In this document: in pieces, positions 34,620-40,608 of the stretch
How positions within the stretch are numbered: the stretch's first letter is position 1
Layout: each line of letters opens with the position of its first letter
Assembly: GCA_019359375.1 (NCBI GenBank)
Contig: JAHHHL010000001.1
Span: 1 to 64,000 of the forward strand
Reading direction: 5' to 3'
DNA length: 64,000 nt
Origin: Lyngbya sp. HA4199-MV5
GTDB lineage: Bacteria; Cyanobacteriota; Cyanobacteriia; Leptolyngbyales; Leptolyngbyaceae
Position numbers and translations under genes: made by a program
Notes under the pieces: generated by a model
Seen by the model: the letters and a program-made list of their open reading frames with translations, nothing else
Database searches by the model: none
Told to the model about the DNA's origin: nothing

Positions 34620-36767
34620 TTACACTGCGGCGCGATCGGTGAGTTGGGTGAGTACGGCGTTCGATCGCTCAACGAAGGCTTGCATCCCTTCGGCATCGAA
34701 GCCTTTTTGCGCCATAAGTGCCAAATCGTAGACGTGATGGCAGATCATGTTTGCTAATTCTGCCGAGGGTGATTGCCCTTCGCTTTGAATGATGGCACCC
34801 TGGCTGAGGCTGATGAGATTTTGGATGAGTGGATGCGAGGTGTTGACCAGAAGGGTGTGCTCTTCGGGAAACTGCACGGCTTGCTGTTGCATGAGTGCGG
34901 TCATTTCTTGCATCCGCCGGAGATGTTCGGGCAAAAGCACCATTGCTGGGGGTACACCCTTTGCGTCGCTGGCTTTGAGCGCTTCGGTACGAATGGTGAG
35001 CTTGGGTTTGTTGAGCGCTTTTTGGAACAGTTCTTTGATGCGATCGCTCTTCGTTTGATTCGTCGTTGGGTCAACGATATCGGCTGGCTTGTCTTTGTCG
35101 ATGAGGGTGTCATCCAGATCGGCATCCACCCGCGAGAATTTCACATCGGAATGTTCGCGCTCCAGGAAGCTAACAAAGTGGCTATCGATGAACGAGTCCA
35201 TAAACAGGACTTCCAACCCTTGCTGCTTGTGCAGTTCGACATAGGTCGTTTGCGCCACTTCATCGGTGCAGTAGAAGACGCGATTGGGGTGATGCTCTTT
35301 GTTGCGCTCCAGATATTCTTTGAGCGTGGTGTAGGGAGGTGAGGAGGGGGGGGAAGCAGGGGAAGCGGAGGAAGCAGGGGAGGCGGGGGGAGAAGAGGAT
35401 ACATCTTGCCATGCGTCGCCTTCTGCCGATTGAACCTCAATTTTTGGTGATTCGTTCTCCTCACTCTTCTCCCCTCTCTCCTCACCCAACTTCGCGGTTG
35501 TGCGGTAGATGAGGATGTCCTCGACCTGTTTCTTAAACTTGTCGTCGTTGATGGAGCCGAACTTGACGAAGGTGCCGAGGTCTTGCCAGCAGCGGATGTA
35601 TTCGTCACGGTTATCGCGGTAAAGTTCTTTGAGCCGATCGCCCACTTTTTTCGCAATGTAATCGGCGATGCGACGCACGGTGCGATCGTTCTGCAAGAAG
35701 CTGCGGGAGACGTTGAGCGGAATGTCTACACTGTCGATGACCCCACGCAGAGGCAGCAGAAACTTGGGAATCACTTCTTCGCAGTTGTCGCTGACGAACA
35801 CCTGATTACAGAAGAGTTTGATCTGTCCCTTGGTGGTGTCAACGTCGGGCTTGAGCTTGGGGAAGTAGAGAATGCCGTTGACCACAAACGGATAGTCGGT
35901 GTTGAGATGGACCCACAGCAGCGGCTCTTCCTGGAAGGGATAGAGGTAGCGGTAGAACTCCAGGTAATCTTCTGAGGTGAGAGAACTGGGCGATTCTTTC
36001 CAGGGAGCCTTTTGACGGTTGATCTGCTCTGGGGCTTTAACTTCGAGCGCTTTTGGTTCGATTGGGGGTTCAGCTAGAGCTTCAGCCGCTGGTTCGGTCA
36101 CAGATTCTGTAGGAGGAGCTTCCGCTACCGCTTCGATGACCTCTAGCTTGATGGGGACGGGTAGAAAGTCGCAGTAGGTTTTGATCAACTGCCGGATGCG
36201 ATACGGCTCCAGATATTCTTGCTCTTCGTCCTGAAGGAGAAGCGTTACAGTGGTGCCGCGATCGCGTCGAGTCGTTGACGCACTCAGTTCAAATTCGGTA
36301 GAACCATCACATGACCAATGCACTGGCTCAGCGTCGGCTTTGTAGGAAAGGGTATCAAGCTCAACCCGTTGCGCGACCATAAAGGACGAGTAGAAGCCCA
36401 ACCCAAAGTGACCGATGATTTGCTGATCGCCAGCGGCTTTATACTTTTCGACAAATTCTTCCGCACTGGAGAACGCCACCTGATTAATGTATTGCTTTAC
36501 TTCGTCCGCCGTCATGCCAATGCCCGTATCGGACACAGCCAGGGTTTTCTGTGCTTTGTCGATCGTAATTACAATTTCAGGTTCGCCCAACTCTCCCGCT
36601 AATTCGCCCGAATAGGACACCATTTTGAGCTTTTGGATCGCATCGACGGCGTTAGAGACAAGCTCCCTCAGAAAAATCTCGTGGTCTGAGTAGAGCCATT
36701 TCTTGATGATGGGGAAAATATTCTCAGTATGAATACTGATGTTGCCCTTTTCGAGAACGGTCGTCAT
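34620..36767 (-). CDS. htpG: molecular chaperone HtpG (Hsp90) with low-complexity insertions
   Basis: A 715-residue Hsp90, against about 620-660 for typical bacterial HtpG. The N-terminal GHKL ATPase is intact: the ELVSNAVDAI box, then DTGIGM and GHFGLGFYSSFMVA. Middle and C-terminal domains are recognisable (RGVIDSVDIPLNVSRSFLQN; LLVNTSHPLIQNL). Two extra low-complexity stretches are present. One is Pro/Glu/Ala-rich near residues 215-245. The other is a Ser/Pro/Ala-rich stretch near 455-478, whose DNA (35340-35395) resembles the intergenic purine tracts. Both fall in surface linkers, so the chaperone is probably functional. It acts in heat and oxidative stress and with phycobiliprotein assembly in cyanobacteria. 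Confidence 0.95.
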   Translation of the reverse strand: MTTVLEKGNISIHTENIFPIIKKWLYSDHEIFLRELVSNAVDAIQKLKMVSYSGELAGELGEPEIVITIDKAQKTLAVSDTGIGMTADEVKQYINQVAFSSAEEFVEKYKAAGDQQIIGHFGLGFYSSFMVAQRVELDTLSYKADAEPVHWSCDGSTEFELSASTTRRDRGTTVTLLLQDEEQEYLEPYRIRQLIKTYCDFLPVPIKLEVIEAVAEAPPTESVTEPAAEALAEPPIEPKALEVKAPEQINRQKAPWKESPSSLTSEDYLEFYRYLYPFQEEPLLWVHLNTDYPFVVNGILYFPKLKPDVDTTKGQIKLFCNQVFVSDNCEEVIPKFLLPLRGVIDSVDIPLNVSRSFLQNDRTVRRIADYIAKKVGDRLKELYRDNRDEYIRCWQDLGTFVKFGSINDDKFKKQVEDILIYRTTAKLGEERGEKSEENESPKIEVQSAEGDAWQDVSSSPPASPASSASPASPPSSPPYTTLKEYLERNKEHHPNRVFYCTDEVAQTTYVELHKQQGLEVLFMDSFIDSHFVSFLEREHSDVKFSRVDADLDDTLIDKDKPADIVDPTTNQTKSDRIKELFQKALNKPKLTIRTEALKASDAKGVPPAMVLLPEHLRRMQEMTALMQQQAVQFPEEHTLLVNTSHPLIQNLISLSQGAIIQSEGQSPSAELANMICHHVYDLALMAQKGFDAEGMQAFVERSNAVLTQLTDRAAV

Positions 36768-37040: not shown

Positions 37041-38087
37041 CTACATGTGGATATAAAGCTGCATGACATCGGCGATCGCCATGCGAGATTGGGCACCGAG
37101 GGTCAAGGGTGAGGTGTGTCCACGGTTGAGGTGATCGGCGGCGGCGCAGGCAATCATGGCAGCGTTGTCGGTGCAGAACTGGAGCGGGGGAAAAAGGACG
37201 CGCAGATTGTATGGCTGAGCCGCTGCTTGTAAGTGCTGTCGTAAGCCGCTGTTAGCTGCTACGCCGCCACCGACGGCGATCGTAGTCAGTCCATAATCAA
37301 GGGCGCAGGCGATCGCCCGTTTAGTTAATGCTTTAGCAACGGTGGCTTGAAAGCTTGCGGCGATGTCGTTGATCGGGAGCGTTTCTGTTTCCTGTTCCAG
37401 CTTTTGGGTCAGGCGCAGGACGGCTGTTTTGAGGCCGCTGAAGCTGGAGTCGTAGCGGTGAAAGCCTCCGTTTGTCAGCGATACCTGTCCTTCAGGTAAA
37501 GAAAACGCTTTGGGGTTGCCTTGTTGAGCGAGGCGATCGATGACAGGACCACCGGGATAGCCCAGATGCATCAACCGCGCCACTTTATCAAACGCTTCCC
37601 CAACGGCATCATCGCGGGTTTGCCCCAGCGTTTCGTAGTAGCCACAGTCTTTGACATAGATCAGGCTGGTATGACCACCGGAGACGAGCAAACAGAGAAA
37701 CGGAGGCTGTAAATCTGTCGCGGTTAAATAAGAGGCGTAGATGTGCCCCTCAAGGTGATGGACACCAATCAACGGTTTCTGGTGCAACAGTGCAAGGGTT
37801 TTGGCAGTAGTTAAACCGACGAGCAACGCACCCACCAGACCGGGAGCACAGGTGGCGGCAATGCCATCGATAGCATTCCAATCGAGGGCGGCTTCCTGAA
37901 GCGCCTGGGCGATCGCAGCATTCACAATTTCCACATGCTGACGGGATGCCACTTCGGGCACAATCCCACCATAGGGCTGATGAGCCGCAATCTGAGATGA
38001 AACAACGCTACTTAAAACTTCACGATCGTTGACGATCGCCACCGCTGTTTCGTCACAACTTGTTTCAATCGCCAAAACCGTCACCAT
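37041..38087 (-). CDS. tsaD: tRNA N6-threonylcarbamoyladenosine synthase subunit TsaD
   Basis: A 348-residue ASKHA-fold protein that transfers threonylcarbamoyl to A37 of ANN-decoding tRNAs with TsaB and TsaE. Family marks are [19 protein letters not shown] at the start, the metal-binding HHLEGH (about residue 112), LVSGGHTSL, and [11 protein letters not shown] near 270. Length matches. The frame is open to 38168, but the ATG at 38087 is the universal family start, with AAGG nine bases upstream. It is divergent from psaF. Confidence 0.95.
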
Positions 38088-38301
38088 TTGCTGGTACCTT
38101 TTTGAAGGTATGAACTTGAAGGTATGAACTGCCTCTTGTAGCTTAGACTGCATCAGGGGTCGCTTCAAACGGCACGATGCTATCTCTTTTTAGTAAACCG
38201 ACCGTTGCAAGACCTCTAACCTGTTTGACCAGGCGGTTTGTGCGAAAAGATTTGTCTTTTGTTTTGTGCGTTTTGTAAATTTAAAGAAGGGAAACAATTC
38301 C

Positions 38302-38787
38302 ATGCAACGGTTGTTTGCTCTAGTACTCGTCGTAATGCTCTGGTTCGGGTTTGTCTCCATCCCAACCGCTCAGGCTTCTAACCTAACACCTTGTAAAGAT
38401 TCTGCCGCGTTTGCCCAGCGAGCGAAAGATTCAATTAGTGCTACCGCAAAGCAGCGGTTTGATTTTTACGCGAATTCTGGTGTGCTGTGTGGTGAGGAAG
38501 GACTGCCTCATCTGGTGGTTGATCCAACAGCCGCCCATGCAGGCGAATTTGCGATTCCAAGTATCCTTTTCCTCTATATCGCTGGCTGGATTGGTTGGGT
38601 CGGTCGTGCTTATCTTCAGGCAATTAAGAAAGGCTCATCTCCTGAACAGGATGAAATCATCATCAATGTTCCTCTGGCGCTTAAGTATGCCCTCTCTGGG
38701 TTTGCTTGGCCCCTGGCAGCAATCAAAGAGTTTACGACGGGTGAACTGACCGCGAAAGATGACGAAATCCCCGTTTCCGTTCGCTAG
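38302..38787 (+). CDS. psaF: photosystem I reaction centre subunit III (PsaF)
   Basis: A 161-residue thylakoid protein. A signal peptide ([20 protein letters not shown] ... AQA) is followed by the lumenal domain ([40 protein letters not shown], with its conserved Cys pair) and one or two membrane helices ([20 protein letters not shown]). PsaF lies beside the plastocyanin/cytochrome c6 docking side of photosystem I. ATG 38302 is preceded by AAGGGA. psaJ follows after about 290 bases and psaL after that. Confidence 0.95.
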
Positions 38788-39080
38788 TTTGTTTCACTGC
38801 TTGGACGTTGCACTTGGACGTTGAATCGGTGCAAGCGCATCTTAAGTGCCTTTCCCAAAAGAAGTTACCTGACATAGTGCGGACTTCCTGCCCGCGTTGC
38901 AAGTGAGACGCTTGCACTACGGCATCCATTGGGTAGATTCTTTAAGAGAAATTACCTTAGTACGGCACGATCGCGTGCTACAAAGCAAGTGCCGCATCTA
39001 TTGAGCAGATTACTTGCAATGTCCAAGCTGACACGATCGTAAATTGAGAGTTGAGTTTTCAGTTTTCAGGAGAACACGTT

Positions 39081-39209
39081 ATGCAATATTTCCTCAAGTA
39101 TCTTTCGACCGCTCCTGTGATTCTCACCGCCTGGATGGTGCTCACAGCCGGTATCCTCATTGAGTTCAATCGCTTCTTTCCAGACTTACTGTTCCACCCA
39201 ATGCCGTAA
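39081..39209 (+). CDS. psaJ: photosystem I subunit IX (PsaJ)
   Basis: A 42-residue single-helix protein beginning [20 protein letters not shown] and ending [11 protein letters not shown], the full-length PsaJ pattern. It sits beside PsaF in photosystem I and binds chlorophyll. An AGGAG ribosome site lies about nine bases before ATG 39081. It is short and easily missed. A strong terminator follows about 75 bases later, closing the psaF-psaJ unit. Confidence 0.95.
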
Positions 39210-39283
39210 CTCATCTGCCTTCAATCATCTGGTTGAGCGATCTCTGGTTGGGCGATCGTGTATCGATCGAAGTCCATGTTGAT

Positions 39284-39329
39284 AAAAGCGAAGGGCAAGA
39301 TCATCATCGATCTCGCCCTTCGCTTTTTA
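39284..39329. terminator. strong intrinsic terminator after psaJ
   Basis: A long near-perfect stem (AAAAGCGAAGGGC... with ...GCCCTTCGCTTTTT) has a small loop around 39302-39308, with A-run and T-run flanks, so it works in both directions. It separates psaJ from psaL, implying that psaL is transcribed separately or by readthrough. Confidence 0.9.
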
Positions 39330-39482
39330 GTTGACCCGTAGCCCACGCCTCTCAGCGTTAATGCATTCAGCAAAACATACGGGAGCGATGCTTCGGTCTA
39401 AGATTTGAGATGACAGGATTTAAGTGAGCAACGTTTGCTTTGGTAGAATCGTTGCGATCGTGCTAGGGGAGTAAAAAGACGG

Positions 39483-40001
39483 ATGACAAACCTTAAGCCA
39501 AGCCAGCGGGCTGCATCGAGCGTGACCCAAAGCACTGTTCTACCAGCCTTAGCGCCAAAATTTGTTGATGCCGTTGGCGATCCGCAAGAAGGAAATTTGG
39601 CAACCCCCATTAATAGTTCTAAGCTTACACGCTGGTTTATTAATCAACTCCCTGCCTATCGTCCAGGAGTATCTCCTTTTCAACGCGGGCTGCAAATTGG
39701 GCTTTCGCATGGGTTTTGGCTCTTAGGTCCCTTTGTCGCGTTGGGACCTTTACGAGACACAGGTTTAGCGCTTTTTGCAGGGCTACTCTCGACCATCGGC
39801 GTTGTCGTGATTGCCGTACTATCGATCGCGCTTTATGCCGAAAGTTCGCCTCCGCCCCCGATTGCCACTTTAACGACTCCCCAGCCGCCTCAAGATCTGG
39901 GCACACCGCAAGGCTGGCAAGAGCTTGCCCGTGGTTTTTTGTTCGGCGGTCTCAGTGGTGCCGTTTTTGCAGCCGTCTTACTCCTCATCTATGGGGTATA
40001 G
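39483..40001 (+). CDS. psaL: photosystem I reaction centre subunit XI (PsaL)
   Basis: A 172-residue PsaL, the subunit at the centre of photosystem I oligomers. Family marks are GNLATPINSSKLTRWFINQL (~38-57), PAYRPGVSPFQRGLQIGLSH (~57-76, with the chlorophyll-ligand His76) and LGPLRDTGLALFAGLLSTIG (~87-106). The C-terminal helix follows. Two features stand out: an N-terminal extension of about 25 residues, and a proline-rich loop between the second and third helices (SSPPPPIATLTTPQPPQDLG, residues 121-140). It lies downstream of psaF-psaJ rather than beside psaI. ATG 39483 is used; no strong ribosome site is visible. Confidence 0.9.
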   Translation: MTNLKPSQRAASSVTQSTVLPALAPKFVDAVGDPQEGNLATPINSSKLTRWFINQLPAYRPGVSPFQRGLQIGLSHGFWLLGPFVALGPLRDTGLALFAGLLSTIGVVVIAVLSIALYAESSPPPPIATLTTPQPPQDLGTPQGWQELARGFLFGGLSGAVFAAVLLLIYGV

Positions 40002-40050: not shown

Positions 40051-40608
40051 CTAACAAGCGGCAGTCGCAAACAGGGTTTCCTCAATCCGGTCGAGCGCCT
40101 TGGCAAAGTCATCGTTAACGATACAAGTATCAAATTCATTCGCCGCCTCAATTTCTGATCGGGCACTCTGAAGGCGGCGGACGATCGCGTCTTCGCTATC
40201 CTGCGCTCGACTCCGAATGCGGTATTCCAACTCCAATAAAGAGGGCGGCAGGATAAAGATTTGCAGTGCATCGGGGAACGTTTTGCGAATTTGGCGTGCT
40301 CCCTGAAGCTCGATTTCTAAAATGACTCGTCTGCCACAGCGAATTTGTTCTTCAACTGCATAGCGAGGGGTGCCATAAAAGTTACCAGCAAATTCTGCCC
40401 ATTCCAGTAGTTCGCCATTGGCAACCATGCGCTCAAAGACATTGCGGGTGACGAAGTAATAGTTTTTGCCGTCAATTTCTCCAGGGCGGGGCGATCGCGT
40501 CGTCACCGATACGGAAAGGTACAGGTCTGGATGACGCTGAATGAGCGATCGGAGAAGCGTCCCCTTGCCGACTCCACTTGGTCCTGTCAAGACAATCAAT
40601 GCGCCCAT
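40051..40608 (-). CDS. gmk: guanylate kinase
   Basis: A 185-residue kinase converting GMP to GDP with ATP. The P-loop [13 protein letters not shown] is at residues 6-18. The GMP-binding block ([20 protein letters not shown], ~33-52) and the lid region ([17 protein letters not shown]) are intact, and length is typical. It follows remA on the same strand after about 260 bases, an association also seen in Firmicutes. It converges on psaL. Confidence 0.95.

Follow-up and report, generated by a model that had tools for sequence, protein, structure and literature searches.

The window, which is the whole 64,000-nucleotide stretch of DNA analysed here, carries three photosystem I (PSI) genes consecutively on its forward strand. 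psaF (38,302–38,787; Pfam PSI_PsaF PF02507, 185 bits) and psaJ (39,081–39,209; PF01701, 80.7 bits) are each the only copy in the genome, a second psaJ match (E 0.8) lying below the cut-off. They are followed by psaL (39,483–40,001; PF02605, 176.2 bits where the cut-off is 25), which encodes a 172-residue protein, hereafter copy A, with a proline-rich loop, a short C-terminus and a Gln at residue 71. No psaI adjoins psaL, and the sole psaI match of the genome is on a different contig. Li and colleagues, in 2014 and 2019, reportedly linked the order psaF-psaJ-psaL without adjoining psaI to non-trimeric PSI, and copy A follows this rule for a tetramer-type PsaL.

The neighbourhood is flanked upstream by tsaD (37,041–38,168) and downstream by gmk (40,051–40,608), both on the reverse strand and both named by eye from their translations. 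A tsaD homologue occupies the same place in relatives and in heterocystous cyanobacteria, and the order tsaD-psaF-psaJ-psaL-gmk is common to the copy A locus and to heterocystous and Chroococcidiopsis-like loci. Elsewhere in the window, positions 34,620–36,767 encode an HtpG-like protein (named by eye) with a low-complexity Ser-Pro-Ala stretch.

The 273 bp gap between psaJ and psaL contains a terminator-like hairpin with a T run on the forward strand (39,284–39,328), recognised by its folding energy relative to shuffled sequences. The interval 39,270–39,345 has a minimum free energy of −31.8 kcal/mol (z −7.6), a value that none of 200 shuffles equals. In all five genus members examined, the best 46-nt hairpin of this gap reaches −28.6 to −38.6 kcal/mol; at five loci outside the genus the corresponding range is −10.0 to −22.9 kcal/mol. 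The hairpin differs in sequence between genus members, and a clear T run is visible in the window and one relative (G036) only. A consensus scan of the locus for terminators and promoters did not have this hairpin among its hits, and returned one promoter-like site where 1.5 are expected by chance; Rfam gave no match within the window. Since the strong hairpin splits psaJ from psaL, the linkage of psaFJ to psaL appears positional and a single psaFJL operon is unlikely, with the caveat that the consensus scan missed the hairpin and that relatives other than G036 lack the clear T run.

Four PsaL domains and one PSI core

The window corresponds to contig C55 of a 6.91 Mb genome in 95 contigs, rated 100% complete. 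Genome-wide, PsaL matches number four, namely copy A in the window, copy B on C21, copy C on C90 and copy D on C4. Copy B follows hisS (named by eye) and has no psaI beside it. Copy D is a PsaL fused to an IsiA/CP43-like domain, and its neighbours are a stand-alone isiA and a flavodoxin-like gene (the latter named by eye). psaA and psaB, like psaI, occur once each, so the genome holds no far-red PSI set. One PsaA/PsaB core and one PsaI would leave the four PsaL domains competing for a single position on each monomer.

The single PsaI scores 64.5 bits against that of 9l0a, 63.9 against T. elongatus, 56.3 against Synechocystis, 42.3 against TS-821 and 36.5 against Anabaena. The PsaIs of 6VPV, a trimer (40.3 bits), and of 6KIF (35.5 bits) score about as poorly as the tetramer PsaIs, which makes PsaI affinity weak evidence on oligomeric state. 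Like the T. elongatus PsaI, this one has no counterpart of the N-terminal Asp with which R153 pairs in Synechocystis.

Class of each PsaL copy

In phmmer searches of the PDB, copy A matched the PsaL of TS-821 (190 bits), Anabaena (167), 6VPV (152.7) and 6KIF (151.2), and reached only 102.1 and 103.4 bits with T. elongatus 1JB0 and Synechocystis 4L6V. Among the named references copy B scored best with T. elongatus (243.5 bits with 1JB0, up to 246.6 bits), Synechocystis giving 235.9 bits. Copy C matched TS-821 (241.6 bits) and Anabaena (211.2 bits), and copy D matched Anabaena IsiA2 (664.3 bits). Of the NCBIfam equivalog models, NF001926 is passed by copy B (274.9 against a cut-off of 231), while copy A (best score 166.7) and copy C (223.6) fall short of a cut-off of 322.

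The loop of copy A comprises residues 121–140 (39,843–39,902, forward strand), of which seven of the 20 are Pro (binomial probability 3e-5 at an assumed 5% Pro), and it aligns without gaps with the PsaL loop of TS-821 and Anabaena. An AlphaFold model built with 48 sequences (mean pLDDT 84.1) has helices at 65–87, 96–120 and 142–170, placing the loop between the second and third. The earlier note had described this insertion, as well as the row of psaF, psaJ and psaL on one strand with no neighbouring psaI, and both descriptions hold under profile matching and modelling. A Foldseek search with the model put five Anabaena tetramer chains at the top, with the C. aponinum trimer in sixth place and TS-821 in ninth; with a trimer placed above TS-821, the fold search does not separate oligomeric states. 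The strict multiproline motif as given in PMC8827656, NPPXP followed by PNPP, is replaced in copy A by SPPPP and PQPP, but the Anabaena reference also lacks NPPXP and the strict motif is therefore a weak test.

Diagnostic residues separate the copies further. All four of the trimer residues cited in PMC8827656 (Q122, D149, R153 and N157) are present in copy B in seven of seven genus rows, and none of them in the window's copy A or in copy C. At the tetramer positions R61, N140 and S144 (Kato 2019, PMC6821847) the window's copy A has Q, Q and R, and none of the three residues occurs in copy A of any of the six genomes that have it; copy C retains two (R61 and N140, with T for S144), and L132, the psaFJ-linked PsaL of another Leptolyngbyaceae metagenome-assembled genome (MAG), has all three. 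The DPRN motif of the N-terminal L11–P15 segment is absent from copy A; copy B also has it, which means that it is not tetramer-specific. The tail after the Q122 column of copy A is 26 residues long in five of six genomes, G039 being the exception with 33; it measures 36–37 in copy B, and 32 in 46 of 80 psaFJ-linked rows. For the PsaL of Cyanophora, PMC8967866 takes the shorter termini at both the N and the C end as a reason against an Anabaena-type tetramer.

Copy A also stands apart in the first helix, where the column of residue 71 holds Glu in 189 of 203 rows and Gln in 13, all of the latter being copy A rows or duplicates; every copy A row has the Gln, and the one other row is a contig-edge fragment. 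We take this Glu to be a chlorophyll ligand. The first helix of PsaL is described as coordinating two chlorophylls (PMC6328476).

Host, distribution and origin of copy A

The source organism is a Stenomitos-like member of the Leptolyngbyaceae and groups with Stenomitos and Tildeniella in Leptolyngbyales, the order in which PMC10694217 places Stenomitos frigidus, instead of near the heterocyst-forming/Chroococcidiopsis clade that the earlier note had proposed. Its genus mates are Stenomitos rutilans, Stenomitos frigidus, Tildeniella nuda, Leptolyngbya FACHB-321, Leptolyngbya ES-bin-22 and an Oscillatoriales MAG. Copy A is present in six of these seven genomes, source included, and was not found in G037, a 94% complete draft of 600 contigs. 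psaF and psaJ lie upstream of it in five of the six; in G039 the contig ends there. By best hit, a trimer-type and a C-type PsaL occur in all seven.

The search across the family covered 42 genomes, of which 40 gave a PsaL match and 14 gave at least three, some of these matches being fragments; G005 and G040, rated 95 and 99% complete, gave no PsaL match. By best-hit labels, a trimer-type PsaL occurs together with a Pro-rich or psaFJ-linked one in 24 of the 40 PsaL-bearing family genomes, and 19 of these 24 have no far-red PsaL. A sample of the phylum yielded PsaL matches in 189 of 386 genomes and at least three in five of the 189, the source genome having the most. In genus g72, G211 and G364, both of about 3 Mb, each show three PsaL matches. 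Three nearly complete genomes of 2.8–3.1 Mb (G181, G217 and G301) have weak PsaL matches only (E 1e-13 to 2e-8), which may be what is left in a lineage that is losing photosynthesis; their congener G177, at 4.8 Mb, has a normal match.

A careful tree was built from 59 of 169 rows. Copy B falls with the trimer references T. elongatus and Synechocystis (100/100). All six copy A rows form one clade (100/100) on a stem of 0.78 within the Pro-rich part of the tree, adjoining L132 (95/75), and copy C falls apart from them, in a clade of 23 rows (89/84). A fast tree placed copy A near copy C, and the careful tree placed it close to L132 and to the group of syntenic psaFJL loci; we lean towards the careful tree. 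AU tests rejected neither a single clade of A and C (p 0.074) nor a grouping of A with other short psaFJ-linked PsaLs (L085, L091 and L092; p 0.114), although the latter is absent from the tree, and the history of copy A is accordingly unsettled. We rejected copy A as a far-red (FaRLiP) PsaL2, there being no second psaA/psaB set and copy A lying outside the far-red PsaL clade.

Tree position, best PDB matches and shared synteny uphold the likeness to tetramer formers that the earlier note had drawn from gene order and loop, though it does not extend to the strict NPPXP/PNPP motif. Two further arrangements were observed at psaFJL loci. L085, L091 and L092, from family genera g3 and g13, are shortened, long-branched PsaLs behind psaF-psaJ in genomes that have separate trimer-type copies besides. 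In the Chroococcidiopsidaceae MAG YX2bin18 (L189, 3206–4531), two tandem psaL genes lie between psaJ and gmk, a possible intermediate for the relocation of a duplicate.

Selection and codon usage

Five genus members gave a core dN/dS of 0.047–0.117 for copy A (mean 0.082), 0.018–0.087 for copy B (mean 0.049) and 0.024–0.075 for copy C (mean 0.054); with silent sites close to saturation, these values are rough. The core of copy A is 136 residues long in all five genomes, with no change of length. At the level of coding sequence this shows purifying selection on copy A, which must do something, although its role is not told thereby.

Codon adaptation was scored against psaA, psaB and two antenna genes of the PSII family. 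Copy A has the lowest value of the 43 open reading frames in the window (0.571), compared with 0.710 for copy B, 0.668 for copy C and 0.699 for psaF. Copy B exceeds copy A in five of five genomes; the order of the other pairs changes in two relatives, with A at 0.664 above C at 0.647 in G035, and C at 0.647 above B at 0.618 in G038. Short genes make the index a weak proxy, and the relatives were scored with the weights of the source genome.

The 120 nt upstream of the gene have a mean identity among the five genus members of 0.76 for copy B, 0.60 for copy C and 0.41 for copy A; the segment upstream of copy B (L002/L007), at 76%, is a candidate regulatory region in its own right. HLR1 high-light boxes reached best scores of 9–13 out of 16 across the three copies, nothing distinctive. 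Judged by codon bias and upstream conservation, copy B looks like the main PsaL of the source genome and copy A like a conserved, lesser-used one.

Interpretation

We observe which genes are present, their sequence features and phylogeny, the selection on them, the hairpin and the codon bias; from these we infer expression levels, competition between PsaLs and oligomeric outcomes. We consider it probable that copy A is a divergent, probably weakly expressed paralog residing at a tetramer-type locus, that the default is trimers built with copy B, and that the four PsaLs compete on one core. With a trimer-type PsaL as the best adapted and a sole PsaI that most resembles trimer forms, mainly trimers would be expected. 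As copies A and C are both Pro-rich, non-trimers in some condition are possible.

Within this reading the other copies would act conditionally. Copy C could give dimers or tetramers, and copy D should give an IsiA-capped monomer under iron limitation. In Anabaena, IsiA2 is reported to replace PsaL and block oligomerisation, and competition between PsaL and IsiA2 is proposed there (PMC9938196). Copy A, which has neither the tetramer residues nor the greater part of the lumenal tail, would be expected to occupy the PsaL site without bridging neighbours, favouring monomers or weak dimers; this is the least certain step.

More tentatively, and on balance unlikely, Stenomitos-type cyanobacteria, which have no far-red acclimation genes, could set the oligomeric state of PSI by exchanging PsaL domains on a single core: B for trimers, C for dimers or tetramers, D, in the source genome, for the IsiA-capped monomer, and A, as a dedicated non-bridging form with a short tail, for free monomers with changed chlorophyll binding. 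Were such swapping to operate, copy A would be a monomer-making isoform that evolved at the old psaFJL locus within cyanobacteria, perhaps repeatedly (compare the shortened, divergent psaFJ-linked PsaLs of genera g3 and g13).

The earlier note had predicted, from gene order and loop, that the organism assembles PSI tetramers or dimers through the psaFJ-linked Pro-rich PsaL, which we now consider improbable. Copy A does share the gene order of Anabaena and TS-821 and belongs to the Pro-rich class, its top PDB sequence and fold matches are tetramer PsaLs, and copy C, with R61 and N140, could serve too. However, the absence of R61, N140 and S144 and the short tail of copy A tell against such a role, a complete trimer-type PsaL is encoded, the sole PsaI best matches trimer PsaIs, and codon bias and upstream conservation favour copy B. 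Nor is the loop sufficient for tetramers, since Pro-rich CR-V motifs are reported from the Prochlorococcus/Synechococcus group, in which three strains are known to be trimeric (PMC8760143), and the C. aponinum PSI trimer is described with an enlarged PsaL stromal loop (PMC8428864). The earlier note had also named two observations that would count against tetramers. The first, a canonical psaI-psaL locus elsewhere, is realised only in part, as the trimer-type copy B exists but not beside psaI; the second, clustering with trimer formers, is not seen for copy A, which falls in the Pro-rich part of the tree.

We give little credence to the view that copy A is a functionless, decaying relic at the old locus, with copy B doing everything. 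Its long stem, shortened tail, lowest codon adaptation and poorly conserved upstream region would fit decay, as would its not being found in one of the seven genus genomes, the 94% complete draft. Against this, copy A is intact in five species despite nearly saturated silent sites, with dN/dS of at most 0.117, a constant 136-residue core, and both the Pro-rich loop and the Gln retained. Finally, a switch of PsaLs by light quality with the trimer-type form as the far-red isoform, as suggested by Chroococcidiopsis thermalis, for which far-red PsaL2 is reported with trimers and PsaL1 with non-trimers (PMC8827656), is highly implausible here, given that the genome has one PsaA and one PsaB only and hence no far-red PSI set, and that copy B lies outside the family's far-red PsaL clade.

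Under the preferred reading, in which a diverged paralog sits in the diagnostic place and a trimer-type PsaL lies elsewhere, the rule based on gene order and loop can mislead. Strains with one core and several PsaLs would also be natural systems in which to test whether PsaL alone sets the oligomer.

Comparison with known systems

That a cyanobacterium may carry multiple PsaLs, in two or three groups, is already in print (PMC8760143). Judged mostly at the level of search results, we recognised no published description of a short-tailed psaFJ-linked PsaL or of Stenomitos PSI, and we file copy A as a new PsaL variant with an unproven tetramer prediction.

The tetramer PsaLs of TS-821 (7QCO) and Anabaena 7120 (6JEO, 6TCL) resemble copy A in the Pro-rich loop and in neighbourhood, as seen in L100 and L180, close relatives of the two. 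They differ from it in that copy A lacks R61, N140, S144 and DPRN, has a shorter tail after the third helix and carries Gln for the first-helix Glu. The trimer PsaLs of T. elongatus (1JB0) and Synechocystis (4L6V) are of the kind of copy B and only distantly like copy A. The trimer PsaL of C. aponinum (6VPV) is described with a long displaced C-terminus (PMC8428864), which copy A is missing, and the PsaL of the Synechococcus PSI-IsiA complex (6KIF) is the one matched by copy A at 151.2 bits. The IsiA-PsaL fusions Anabaena IsiA2 (7Y3F) and Leptolyngbya IsiA4 have their counterpart in copy D rather than in the window gene.
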